A stretch of DNA of 64,000 nt from Rhodanobacter sp. (GTDB lineage Bacteria; Pseudomonadota; Gammaproteobacteria; Xanthomonadales; Rhodanobacteraceae), in the NCBI GenBank assembly GCA_004298015.1, contig SCSE01000045.1:62001-126000 (forward strand), read 5' to 3'. Shown in pieces: positions 5,440 to 59,209 of the stretch. The translations under genes and the position numbers were made by a program. A model generated the notes under the pieces. The model searched no databases, was not told the origin of the DNA, and worked only from the letters and a program-made list of their open reading frames with translations. The first letter of the stretch is position 1; every line of letters starts with the position of its first letter.

Positions 5440-5453
5440 CTGACCCTGATCAA
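5440..5453 (-). promoter_or_regulatory. FNR/Dnr-like site upstream of fabA
   Basis: On the minus strand the site reads TTGAT-CAGG-GTCAG, 8 of 10 consensus half-site bases. Its centre is 63.5 bp before the fabA ATG, the same distance as at ubiU. The hexamer CAGACT at 5417-5412 has the spacing expected for a class II FNR promoter and is identical to the one in front of hemN. The rest of the 325-bp gap (5384-5708) shows nothing else I can support. Confidence 0.6.
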
Positions 5454-8964: not shown

Positions 8965-9825
8965 TCAGGCGGGCTCGCCCCGATGTGCAGCCCGTGCCGC
9001 ACGGGCGAAACGCGCGCCACGGTTCAACGCAATGCGCAAACCCAGCGGGATCGACTCCCACGGCAGTCGCTCGAGCATGTTGCGCGCAGTGAGGCCCAGC
9101 TCGGTATCGCCGGTGAGTACCAGGCGACGCTGGAAGAACAGCGTATCGGCATCCTCCAGCCTGCCGGCGAGCAACAACAGGTCAGTCGCGCTGCCGCGTA
9201 CGGTGGCTTCGGGTTCACCATCGATCGCGCACAGACGCTGCTCACGCAATTCCAGCATCCAGTGCAGACGCAGGTCACTCACCTCGATGGCAAGACGGTG
9301 CCCGCGCATGAAGTCGAGCGCGCCCTCACGCAATGGCGCAGCGAGCACGCGCGCCATCGCAGCCTCCAGCAAGGTGCGCTGCCAATACGGGGGGAACACA
9401 CGCAGCAGCGGCGCGACCCGCCGTGGTGGCGGCAATAAGCGCAACAGATGAAGAGCGCTGGAGGACCGGGGAGAGGAAGTCGACATGGTGGACACCATTA
9501 TCGTGGCGCCGCCGGTTGCGGCGCCCTGACCCAGGTCAACCGGAAGCCCCTGCTGATGGCAGGCGTCAGCGATGACAAGATCCAGCATCTGCATCGCTGT
9601 CGATGCCGGCAGATCCAGTCTTGCCGCCAGTCCGAGCGCCCGATCGTGTATCTGCCGCTCGCGCAGCGGATCACGGACGGACAGCCCGACACGCGGCTTG
9701 AGCACCGCCACCGCGCGTACTACCCGGCGACGGGCGGCGAGCAACAAGAGCATGCCGTCATCAATGCGATCGATGACGCCGCGCGCCCGTTTCAATGCGA
9801 GTCGCTCAAGTACGATGGGCGGCAT
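8965..9825 (-). CDS. ubiT: Chorismate mutase (AroQ)-UbiT fusion protein
   Basis: One uninterrupted frame of 286 residues joins two families. Residues about 7-93 are an AroQ chorismate mutase with every E. coli catalytic position retained at a constant offset of +4: Arg15, Arg32, Lys43, Asp52, Arg55, Glu56 and Gln92. Residues about 114-286 are an SCP2-type lipid-binding UbiT with the diagnostic DADTLFFQRRLVLTGDTELG. The start ATG 9825 has a GAGG ribosome site. The UbiT half from Met114 is 173 residues, the size of E. coli UbiT, and is preceded by an internal FNR-like site. A separate shorter UbiT product is therefore possible. UbiT works with UbiUV in O2-independent ubiquinone synthesis. Confidence 0.9.
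   Translation of the reverse strand: MPPIVLERLALKRARGVIDRIDDGMLLLLAARRRVVRAVAVLKPRVGLSVRDPLRERQIHDRALGLAARLDLPASTAMQMLDLVIADACHQQGLPVDLGQGAATGGATIMVSTMSTSSPRSSSALHLLRLLPPPRRVAPLLRVFPPYWQRTLLEAAMARVLAAPLREGALDFMRGHRLAIEVSDLRLHWMLELREQRLCAIDGEPEATVRGSATDLLLLAGRLEDADTLFFQRRLVLTGDTELGLTARNMLERLPWESIPLGLRIALNRGARFARAARAAHRGEPA
9496..9539 (-). promoter_or_regulatory. Putative internal FNR-dependent promoter for UbiT
   Basis: The FNR-like sequence at 9526-9539 (minus strand TTGAC-CTGG-GTCAG) lies inside the fusion gene and encodes residues 96-100 of the linker. It is followed by the good -10 hexamer GATAAT at 9502-9497. This puts the transcript start at about 9490 with the site centred near -42, and the UbiT ATG at 9486 only about 4 nt downstream. 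No Shine-Dalgarno is visible, so the product would come from a nearly leaderless mRNA. Confidence 0.55.
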
Positions 9826-10030: not shown

Positions 10031-10044
10031 CTGACCTGGGTCAA
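10031..10044 (-). promoter_or_regulatory. FNR/Dnr-like site between norB and cm-ubiT
   Basis: The site CTGAC-CTGG-GTCAA (7 of 10 half-site bases) lies in the 282-bp gap 9826-10107. Facing the minus strand, a TGCGAT hexamer at 10008-10003 has the right spacing, which would give the cm-ubiT transcript a leader of about 170 nt. On the plus strand there is neither a -10 nor a gene to serve. I see no gene in the rest of the gap. Confidence 0.5.
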
Positions 10045-12572: not shown

Positions 12573-12731
12573 CGACTGTCGGTCTTTGACGGTCGAGGCG
12601 AGAATTTGGCTGCGCGGGGGAAGTTTTTCGACGATTCGCCGACTCGTCGCGGTTCTATCGGGCGAGAACCGACGAAAATAGGGGCCGTGCCGACAGATTC
12701 GCCGACCGGCCGATCAAAGTTCGACAGACTC
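12573..12731 (-). repeat. MITE-like dispersed repeat, copy 2
   Basis: About 157 bp. The right end on the minus strand starts TCTGTCGAACTTTGATCGG, and the other end read inward is ACTGTCGGTCTTTGACGG, an imperfect terminal inverted repeat. Internal blocks (CGCGCAGCC, then GCCTCGACC) match the copies at 45.6 and 46.7 kb. This copy overlaps the last codons and the stop of the FNR gene that ends at 12714. It fills the gap between norB and that gene. Confidence 0.7.
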
Positions 12732-13484
12732 CTGGCCGACTTGCCCGGCAAGCGCACGCAATCCATGCGCATCGAGGATCTCCAGCTGCCTTCCCTCGAT
12801 CCGGATCAATCCCTGGTCGCGCATGCGGGTGAACAGCCGACTCACTGTTTCCGACGCCAGTCGAAGGTAATTGCCGATATCGGTGCGCGACATGCCCAGA
12901 TGCAGTGTGCTGCCGGAAAACCCGCCCGCAGCAAAGCGTGCCGACAGGTCGATCAGGAACGCTGCCAGACGTACCTCGGCGGGGTGATCGCCCGCCAGCG
13001 TGGCCGTCATGCCCAGTTCCTTGGACAGCAGCCGAAACAATTGCTGCTGCAATCCGGGCATACGGCCCGCCAGCGCACTGATCGCCGGAAACGAAAATCG
13101 GCAGAAATGCGCTGTTTCCAGCACGATGGCATTGCAGGGGTAGTGGTCCGGGTAGATGCCGTTGAGCCCGATGATCTCGCCAGCCACATAAAATCCCTGC
13201 ACCTGCTCCTGGCCGTCGGTGCCGAAGCTGACTGTCTTGACCATGCCAGCGCGCACCGCATAAATCGCCTTGAACGGATCGCGCGCCCGAAACACGTGCT
13301 CGCCGGCGCGAAACGGGCCGACATGCTCGACCAGTACGTGCAGATCGCGCAGCGCGGACTTGTCATAGCCCGCCTCGTGGCACACCCCGGAAAAGGCACA
13401 CGTGCTGCAGAACCGCACCGTGTCGCCGTCATCGACCATCGGGTCGCGCCGCGGATCGATGAGCATTGGAATTTTGGGGGACAT
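12714..13484 (-). CDS. FNR-type oxygen-sensing regulator (copy 1)
   Basis: CRP/FNR-family regulator of about 256 residues. It has the full set of FNR [4Fe-4S] ligands, Cys26, Cys29 and Cys35 (FCSTCAFSGVC) plus Cys128 (ETAHFCRFSF), so it is an O2 sensor rather than a cluster-less Dnr. The helix-turn-helix SRTDIGNYLRLASETVSRL carries the E-xx-SR recognition pattern that reads TTGAT. The start is uncertain: ATG 13484 is chosen, and a GTG at 13523 would lengthen it. The last codons and stop come from a MITE-like repeat end. It lies between SCO1-nirV-nirK and norB and probably controls both. Confidence 0.9.
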   Translation of the reverse strand: MSPKIPMLIDPRRDPMVDDGDTVRFCSTCAFSGVCHEAGYDKSALRDLHVLVEHVGPFRAGEHVFRARDPFKAIYAVRAGMVKTVSFGTDGQEQVQGFYVAGEIIGLNGIYPDHYPCNAIVLETAHFCRFSFPAISALAGRMPGLQQQLFRLLSKELGMTATLAGDHPAEVRLAAFLIDLSARFAAGGFSGSTLHLGMSRTDIGNYLRLASETVSRLFTRMRDQGLIRIEGRQLEILDAHGLRALAGQVGQESVEL

Positions 13485-13665
13485 GGTATCCGGTGGCGCC
13501 ACATGGGCAGACTCAGGTGCCACACATCATATCAAGACCACCCCGCCCGCAGAGCAGGTTGCGGCACCACGACCGCCACCCCGGGCATCGGACTCATCGA
13601 CATCACATGCGATTGGCGTTGCCGGATGCCTCCAGCAACATGGGCATGCGCGGATGCACATTCGA

Positions 13666-15095: not shown

Positions 15096-16556
15096 CTACT
15101 TCGCCGGCCCGGCCGCGCGCACGGCCCTGACCTCGCTCGCGCTGATCGTGCCGCCCTTGTTGTTGAAGTTGTTCAACACGTAGGTCAGTACGTTGGCGAT
15201 CTCGTCGTCGCTGAGTTGTGGCCCGAGTGCAGGCATCACCGACTCGTAACCCGTGCTGTTCACGGTGATCTTCCCGCTGAGCCCATGCAGCACGATGCTG
15301 ATCGCCCGCTTCGGATCGGCGTTGAGGTAGTCGGACATTGCCAGGGGCGGGAACGCGCCCGGCAAGCCCATCGCATTGCCCTGGTGGCAGGCCGAACAGA
15401 TCTGGGTGAAGACGCGCTTGCCATCGGCGGCCTTGTCGCCGACGCTCAACGCCACGCTCTGCTGCACAGGCCGAGCGGTCTTGCTGGCGAACGTGGTGCT
15501 CGGCCCCTTTTCATAGATCGCCGGCTGTAGTGGACCGCTGACACTGATCTGGCCCAGGGCTCCCTTCATGAAGGCGCGGGTGATCGAATGATCGACCAGC
15601 AGCAGGGTGCCCGGCACCGGTGTGCGCAGTTCGACCATGGTCGCGCCGCCGGCGGGAACCAGGGTCGTCTGCACATGGTGGTTGACCAAAGTGCCACCCT
15701 CGACATTGGCATCGTCAAAGATGGCCCCGATGACATGGAAGCTCGAGACCAGGTTGGGGCCGCCGTTGCCGACGAACAGCCGAACCGTGTCGCCCACGCT
15801 GGACTTGAGTGCATGGTCTCCGGTCAGCGAACCTTCGCGGCCATTGAACAGCACGTAGGTTGGCTGCTCGTCCAGCATCTTCTGCATGTCGAATGACTGC
15901 AGACCGGGTTGATGGTAGGAGCCGGTGGTGTAGAAATCGCCCTGCATCACGTAATACTCGTGATCCACCTTCGGCAGACCCTCCGGTGGCTCGACCACGA
16001 TCAGTCCATACATGCCGTTGGCGATGTGCATCGGTACCGGTGCGGTAGCACAGTGGTAGACGAACACGCCTGCGCGCAGCGCCTTGAAGGTGAACACACT
16101 CTCATGCCCCGGCGGGGTGATGGTGGACACGGCGCCACCGCCCGGGCCCATCACTGCGTGCAAGTCGATGTTGTGAGCCATATGTGAATCGGGAGCGTTG
16201 CGCAGATGAAGCTCGACCGTGTCGCCCTCGCGCACACGAATCAGCGGACCAGGCGTGGAGCCATTGAAGGTCCAGAAGTCGTAGCGCACACCGTCGGCGA
16301 TTTCCTTGACGACCTCTCTGGTTTCCATGCGTACGATGACGCGTGCCGGGTAGTTCCGATGGATCGGTGCCGGCACCCCAGGCGGAGGCACCAGCTTTTC
16401 TTCGACAGGCTTCCCCTGCGGTGGCCCGAAATCGCCCGCCAGCACGGCTGTGGCGGGCTTTTTTGCCGGCTCTTTGGCAGCGGCCGATGCTGGCGCATAC
16501 GTGATCCCAACCAGCAGGGCGACCGTAGCCAGCGTGATGGATAGCTGTCGTAACAT
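15096..16556 (-). CDS. nirK: Copper nitrite reductase with C-terminal cytochrome c domain
   Basis: A 486-residue periplasmic enzyme reducing nitrite to NO. It has a Sec-type signal (residues 1-26), a Lys/Ala/Pro-rich segment, then two cupredoxin domains. Copper ligands are visible in [33 protein letters not shown] (type 1 His, Cys, Met) and [12 protein letters not shown]. From about residue 380 a class I cytochrome c domain follows with the haem motif CSACH and a likely axial Met in YESVMPALG, making this a haem-tethered three-domain NirK. An FNR-like site and a 16-bp palindrome lie upstream. Likely operon: nirK-nirV-SCO1. Confidence 0.97.
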
Positions 16557-20450: not shown

Positions 20451-20464
20451 TTGATCCGGATCAA
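20451..20464 (-). promoter_or_regulatory. Perfect FNR box upstream of hemN
   Basis: TTGAT-CCGG-ATCAA is a perfect 14-bp palindrome and an exact consensus match. With the class II position (-41.5) the transcript would start at or next to the hemN ATG (20416). CAGACT at 20428-20423 occupies the -10 position and is identical to the hexamer before fabA. Confidence 0.8.

Positions 20465-54763: not shown

Positions 54764-59209
<4,446 letters not shown>

Follow-up and report, generated by a model that had tools for sequence, protein, structure and literature searches.

A chorismate mutase-UbiT fusion in Rhodanobacter and its relatives as a probable low-oxygen prephenate supply for ubiquinone synthesis

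In Rhodanobacter sp. (GenBank assembly GCA_004298015.1) an AroQ-type chorismate mutase (CM) and the ubiquinone protein UbiT are joined in a single open reading frame, and we consider it probable, at roughly 0.7, that the product is a dedicated low-oxygen supply of prephenate for ubiquinone synthesis, operating beside the housekeeping PheA. Prephenate is the product of chorismate mutase, and PheA is also able to make it. In the proposed mechanism, the gene would produce a UbiT with an active chorismate mutase as its N-terminus, and at low oxygen the CM part would convert chorismate to prephenate near the UbiT-UbiU-UbiV machinery, where prephenate would serve as the hydroxyl donor for the oxygen-independent ring hydroxylations of ubiquinone. 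An old FNR-driven ubiT promoter in the linker would probably also yield a CM-less UbiT (about 173 aa) whose mRNA starts with almost no leader. This proposal draws on the fusion itself, its spread, its catalytic residues, selection, the conservation of FNR-like boxes and independent CM-ubiT gene pairs, and, from the literature, on prephenate as an oxygen donor and FNR control of ubiT; from these we infer the CM activity, the local delivery of prephenate and the two protein forms.

The fusion gene lies at positions 8965-9825 on the reverse strand of the window, by which we mean the whole stretch of 64,000 nucleotides that was analysed (contig SCSE01000045.1). The single frame of CM and UbiT described in an earlier note on this DNA was confirmed, with 286 codons plus a stop, no internal stop and both profiles above their cut-offs. 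The CM domain covers residues 15-92 (9550-9783, reverse strand; Pfam CM_2, 49.1 bits, E 6.5e-13, cut-off 27) and the SCP2 domain of UbiT residues 142-257 (9055-9402, reverse strand; NCBIfam NF047962, 123.8 bits, cut-off 46.9). A ribosome-site-like GGAG precedes the ATG of the 286-aa long form at a position common to most relatives, and a low-confidence structure prediction from a six-row alignment (mean pLDDT 52) tentatively puts CM helices at residues 5-45, 53-69 and 74-91. The earlier note had also considered a sequencing error that hides a stop between the domains; this was ruled out, with one open frame running through the linker in 68 fused loci. In its own genome (90 contigs totalling 3.93 Mb, completeness 99.64%) the fusion is the sole UbiT above the cut-off, another SCP2 protein reaching 32.5 bits against the 46.9 required.

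Surveying AroQ-SCP2 fusions in other genomes, as had been suggested, places the fusion within one part of the order. A profile search across the order matched the fusion profile in 98 of 398 genomes, comprising 59 with CM and UbiT in one frame (including the source genome), 38 with unfused UbiT and one with CM only. All 59 fused genomes belong to families f1-f4, where 63 UbiT-bearing genomes were sampled; the exceptions there are four genomes with unfused UbiT, one of which (G315) carries a CM about 35 kb from ubiT. All 34 UbiT-bearing genomes of families f8, f9, f10 and f12 are unfused. A class-wide search matched 91 of 369 genomes: three fused (all from the order), one with CM only, and 87 UbiT-bearing genomes from beyond the order, none of which has the fusion. 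These fused, unfused and CM-only numbers were read by hand from the match rows of both searches. A frame-by-frame check of 78 loci gave 68 fused genes, eight with unfused UbiT and two with CM only, after exclusion of L064, L065, L066 and L068, which duplicate genomes in the count.

Several loci depart from the common arrangement. UbiT occurs without a fused CM in G001, G008, G282 and G214, and G315 (L141, L142) has both proteins apart, with a fusion-type CM and with ubiU and ubiV adjoining its ubiT. G060 (L143) has no UbiT match and keeps a fusion-type CM in which lysine 43 is replaced by arginine. In G214 (L139) the end of the CM domain and the linker box persist 5' of an unfused ubiT, a remnant that is likely to be the trace of CM loss; a clear piece of CM before an unfused ubiT was seen only in this genome, with weak, scattered matches elsewhere. 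One further locus, L070 (G022:C23:7000-12000), holds a second CM_2 domain (39.5 bits) in a 424-aa frame; this genome has no UbiT above the cut-off.

The association also appears in a different form elsewhere. Beyond the order but within the class, a stand-alone CM gene adjoins ubiT in five of 80 neighbourhoods, each in a different family (the set covers 80 of the 87 UbiT-bearing class genomes). The gap between the two frames is -5 to 73 bp, the pairs being divergent in G647, G700, G454 and G594, with CM downstream on the same strand in G562. All five CMs exceed the Pfam CM_2 cut-off; judged by eye, D52 is replaced in them and the remaining signature is mostly kept. FNR-like boxes (9 or 10 of 10 positions) are found between the two genes of each divergent pair and, in G562, ahead of ubiT. 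Under the assumption of two CM genes per 3 Mb, the Poisson chance of five CMs within 1 kb of ubiT is about 1e-7. No CM neighbour was found in the other 75 of these 80 neighbourhoods, at 69 ubiT loci of a phylum-wide sample (67 genomes, two present twice, with L257 excluded as a further stretch of one of the genomes counted) or at 20 unfused ubiT loci of the same order. The scan of the class neighbourhoods gave no further CM match in 84 loci (896 kb), and the positive control of its CM profile consisted of the sequences used to build the profile and so proves little. In a FastTree tree the fused and neighbour CMs are not grouped; being built from a short domain and without support values, the tree decides nothing on a shared origin. 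Together, the fusions and gene pairs connect a predicted prephenate maker with ubiT across several families.

The best surviving alternative is that the CM is an extra housekeeping mutase for amino acid synthesis, fused or adjacent to ubiT merely to gain low-oxygen expression. Such a role would be compatible with the loss of the CM in a few genomes and with the presence of PheA in all of the relatives, which makes the fused CM redundant for a general role. We regard it as unlikely, given that CM genes also accompany ubiT in five other families, that the fusion is nearly fixed in four, and that the chance calculated above for the five neighbours, at the assumed CM density, is small. The source genome itself has one CM_2 match and no match to type I CM, and prephenate dehydratase (PF00800) was not found in it. 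The PF00800 domain is present in 59 of 59 relatives, with only a fragment in G019, so that a gap in the assembly is the likelier explanation and the missing dehydratase is probably such a gap. The idea that the fused CM is the only mutase of the genome is less likely for the same reason.

The case for a link to ubiquinone synthesis depends on the fate of prephenate. In the available text of a review (PMC11574389), prephenate is stated to be the source of the hydroxyl in the oxygen-independent step of UbiU and UbiV, with the qualification that catalysis of the reaction by U32 enzymes still lacks direct evidence. Similarly, passages of PMC10470549 propose a prephenate role for UbiUV, and TrhP, which is related to UbiU and UbiV, requires prephenate according to excerpts of PMC6599085. 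As prephenate is the reported oxygen donor of the UbiU/UbiV step, the CM would feed the ubiquinone pathway. No paper linking CM to UbiT or UbiUV was found in the literature searched. The earlier note had seen the CM as a competing chorismate enzyme, a view that is not supported, its product being the reported oxygen donor; competition between the CM and ubiquinone synthesis is improbable. A stronger version would make the CM a rival of the chorismate lyase branch, a brake that diverts chorismate from the ubiquinone ring to phenylalanine and tyrosine. It can appeal to chorismate being the source of that ring, as stated in the text seen of PMC10470549, but prephenate is itself a reported pathway reactant in the review cited above, and CM genes also sit beside ubiT in further families. 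The FNR-like boxes at those pairs suggest that the CM is made when the ubiquinone pathway is on, and a brake is therefore very improbable.

Catalysis by the fused domain is predicted from its conserved residues. The catalytic set of the E. coli enzyme, which we take to be R11, R28, K39, D48, R51, E52 and Q88, has its counterparts in R15, R32, K43, D52, R55, E56 and Q92 of the fusion, and the constant offset of +4 noted earlier for all seven positions was found again in the translation; an eighth position that is often named, E. coli S84, corresponds to A88. Across 70 CM domains the columns hold R in 70, R in 70, K in 69, D in 70, R in 70, E in 70 and Q in 69, the deviations being K to R in G060 and Q to H in G049, and all seven are among the eleven columns that are at least 95% identical. 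For genes of the Rhodanobacter group, dN/dS was 0.07-0.31 for CM and 0.05-0.20 for UbiT (ten pairs each) and 0.34-1.02 for the linker (the nine computable pairs), indicating that the fused CM is under purifying selection. Compared with CM, the linker had the lower synonymous divergence in eight of ten pairs; compared with UbiT, it did so in only six of ten, and this is thus weak evidence for constraint at the DNA level. A decayed CM was ruled out by the residue conservation together with dN/dS; the active site appears intact, and activity from chorismate to prephenate is predicted.

The same residues bear on two further alternatives, both highly improbable. The fold could belong to another enzyme of chorismate or isochorismate, for instance a lyase giving the ring precursor 4-hydroxybenzoate, and pyruvate lyases with the AroQ fold do exist; however, to our knowledge these are without part of the mutase signature, whereas D52-x-x-R55-E56 with R15, R32, K43 and Q92 is kept in at least 68 of the 70 domains. 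A dimerisation or chorismate-sensing module in which catalysis is irrelevant would suit the intertwined dimers that AroQ mutases form, but not the placing of all seven catalytic positions within the eleven most conserved columns, nor the stand-alone neighbour CMs, which are unable to scaffold by fusion.

The forward strand of the window carries ubiU (908-1936, start likelier 938; NCBIfam NF047963 533.4 bits, cut-off 440, matching from residue 11) and ubiV (1806-2849, start likelier near 1968; NCBIfam NF047965 351.3 bits, cut-off 275, matching from residue 56). Among the genomes tested, all 12 with UbiT have exactly two U32 proteins and all three lacking UbiT have none, so in those 12 no U32 protein other than UbiU and UbiV was found. 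An FNR/CRP-type regulator (12714-13523, reverse strand) was recognised by Pfam and scores 184.9 bits with the FNR model NF008365, below its cut-off of 228; it has cysteines at 39, 42 and 48 (CX2CX5C) and distal ones at 130 and 141. The window also holds hemN, a NorB-type protein (by Pfam) and a copper nitrite reductase (15096-16556, reverse strand) with a cytochrome-c-like C-terminal stretch, residues 376-465 of which match the CcoP model weakly.

FNR-like boxes are enriched in this window, with seven matches to TTGAYNNNNRTCAR at six places (one palindrome being matched on both strands) against 0.42 expected, and 100 shuffles of the window gave three matches at most. A match to TTGAYNNNNRTCAR precedes ubiU (868-881), and another, the perfect palindrome TTGATCCGGATCAA, lies at the start of the hemN frame (20451-20464). 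Other boxes were observed at 5440-5453 and 56094-56107, one of them just 5' of the fabA frame. For the fusion itself, the FNR-like site proposed earlier at linker codons 96-100 was borne out by the match TTGACCTGGGTCAG at 9526-9539 (reverse strand, codons V96-Q100), and the accompanying -10-like GATAAT (9502-9497, read from the sequence, at class II spacing within 1 nt) and the ATG at 9486-9484, which would open a 173-aa UbiT, are both present on the same strand, the latter 39 nt past the box. An additional in-frame ATG, M110 (9498-9496), overlaps the -10-like hexamer, making M114 (9486-9484) the likelier and probable start of the short form. A second match to TTGAYNNNNRTCAR, at 10031-10044 on the reverse strand, stands 206 nt before the long-form start and may serve the long form; G023, the nearest relative, has a box in a comparable position.

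Counting a box as nine of ten positions or better and the upstream region as 170 nt, which leaves the box at 10031-10044 outside, the 68 fused genes comprise 38 with a box in the linker only, 14 with one upstream of CM only, nine with both and seven with neither, and so 61 have one before the fusion or in its linker. The linker box is found in 47 genes against 0.21 expected from shuffled sequence and the upstream box in 23 against 0.25, although relatedness inflates both counts; the upstream boxes of G074, G408 and G273, each with a core mismatch, may be chance. The linker box lies at a conserved promoter spacing. An in-frame ATG follows it by 36 or 39 nt in 46 of the 47 genes (G120 is the exception) and in many genera, and the distance is unchanged despite extra residues between CM and box in G019, G010 and REEB220. 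Among the unfused loci six of eight have a box close upstream: the distance to the ATG is 39 nt in the CM-less relatives G001 and G008 and 36 nt in G214, and 35 nt in the unfused G101 and G065 from another family of the order, while G315 has a box and no ATG at such a distance. Because box and spacing are kept in unfused relatives, the nested promoter looks like an old ubiT promoter retained; we infer that it predates the fusion and survived inside it, and the linker is a clear candidate for an ancestral promoter within the coding sequence of a fusion. The nested FNR-type promoter with its UbiT-only start and the two possible products that the earlier note derived from it are strengthened by conservation. 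With the box centred at -41.5, transcripts are predicted to start 2 or 5 nt before the ATG, leaving almost no leader.

The predicted nested promoter is one of two regulatory layouts. In the 14 genes with a box only upstream, what is made under anaerobic conditions is probably the entire CM-UbiT protein, which must there itself work as UbiT. An active nested box would shift production at low oxygen towards the CM-less form, leaving the long form to another promoter; for a reading as prephenate supply alone, this is the most awkward point. Furthermore, UbiT without CM in G001, G008, G282 and G214 means that the CM is not essential to the pathway, G060 keeps its CM without a UbiT match, and 7 of the 68 fused genes show no box.

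Known systems provide parallels for most parts of this arrangement. The fusion resembles UbiT of the oxygen-independent UbiTUV pathway of E. coli: it matches the UbiT model above the cut-off, it has ubiU and ubiV nearby, and an FNR-type box precedes the UbiT start, as at E. coli ubiTp2 (in the available text of PMC10470549); such a box is given for 1001 of 1566 ubiT genes in the part of PMC11707229 at hand. Unlike E. coli UbiT, the protein described here carries a chorismate mutase and the box sits inside a coding linker. In Zymomonas mobilis UbiT is likewise fused to a partner from the same pathway (as excerpted from PMC6747719), but that partner is UbiU, whereas here it is a predicted prephenate-making enzyme. 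PheA (CM-prephenate dehydratase) and the T-protein TyrA (CM-prephenate dehydrogenase) similarly join an AroQ CM to a protein of a prephenate step; their partners convert prephenate itself, whereas UbiT is a lipid-binding type factor of the SCP2 class. TrhP and RlhA belong to the same U32 family as UbiU and UbiV and need prephenate, yet they act on RNA, and the accessible passages of PMC6599085 mention no dedicated CM partner for them.

A bolder picture, to which we would give somewhat less than even odds, is that CM, UbiT, UbiU and UbiV work together as one oxygen-regulated unit. This unit would produce its organic oxygen donor on site and pass prephenate on to the hydroxylase, and the linker would act both as a protein joint and as an FNR promoter for CM-less UbiT, letting the cell tune the share of UbiT with a prephenate source. 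The use of prephenate as an organic oxygen donor is a recent and unusual claim, to which the CM-ubiT fusions and pairs add independent genomic support. The CM-UbiT fusion would be a natural tool toward an in vitro assay.
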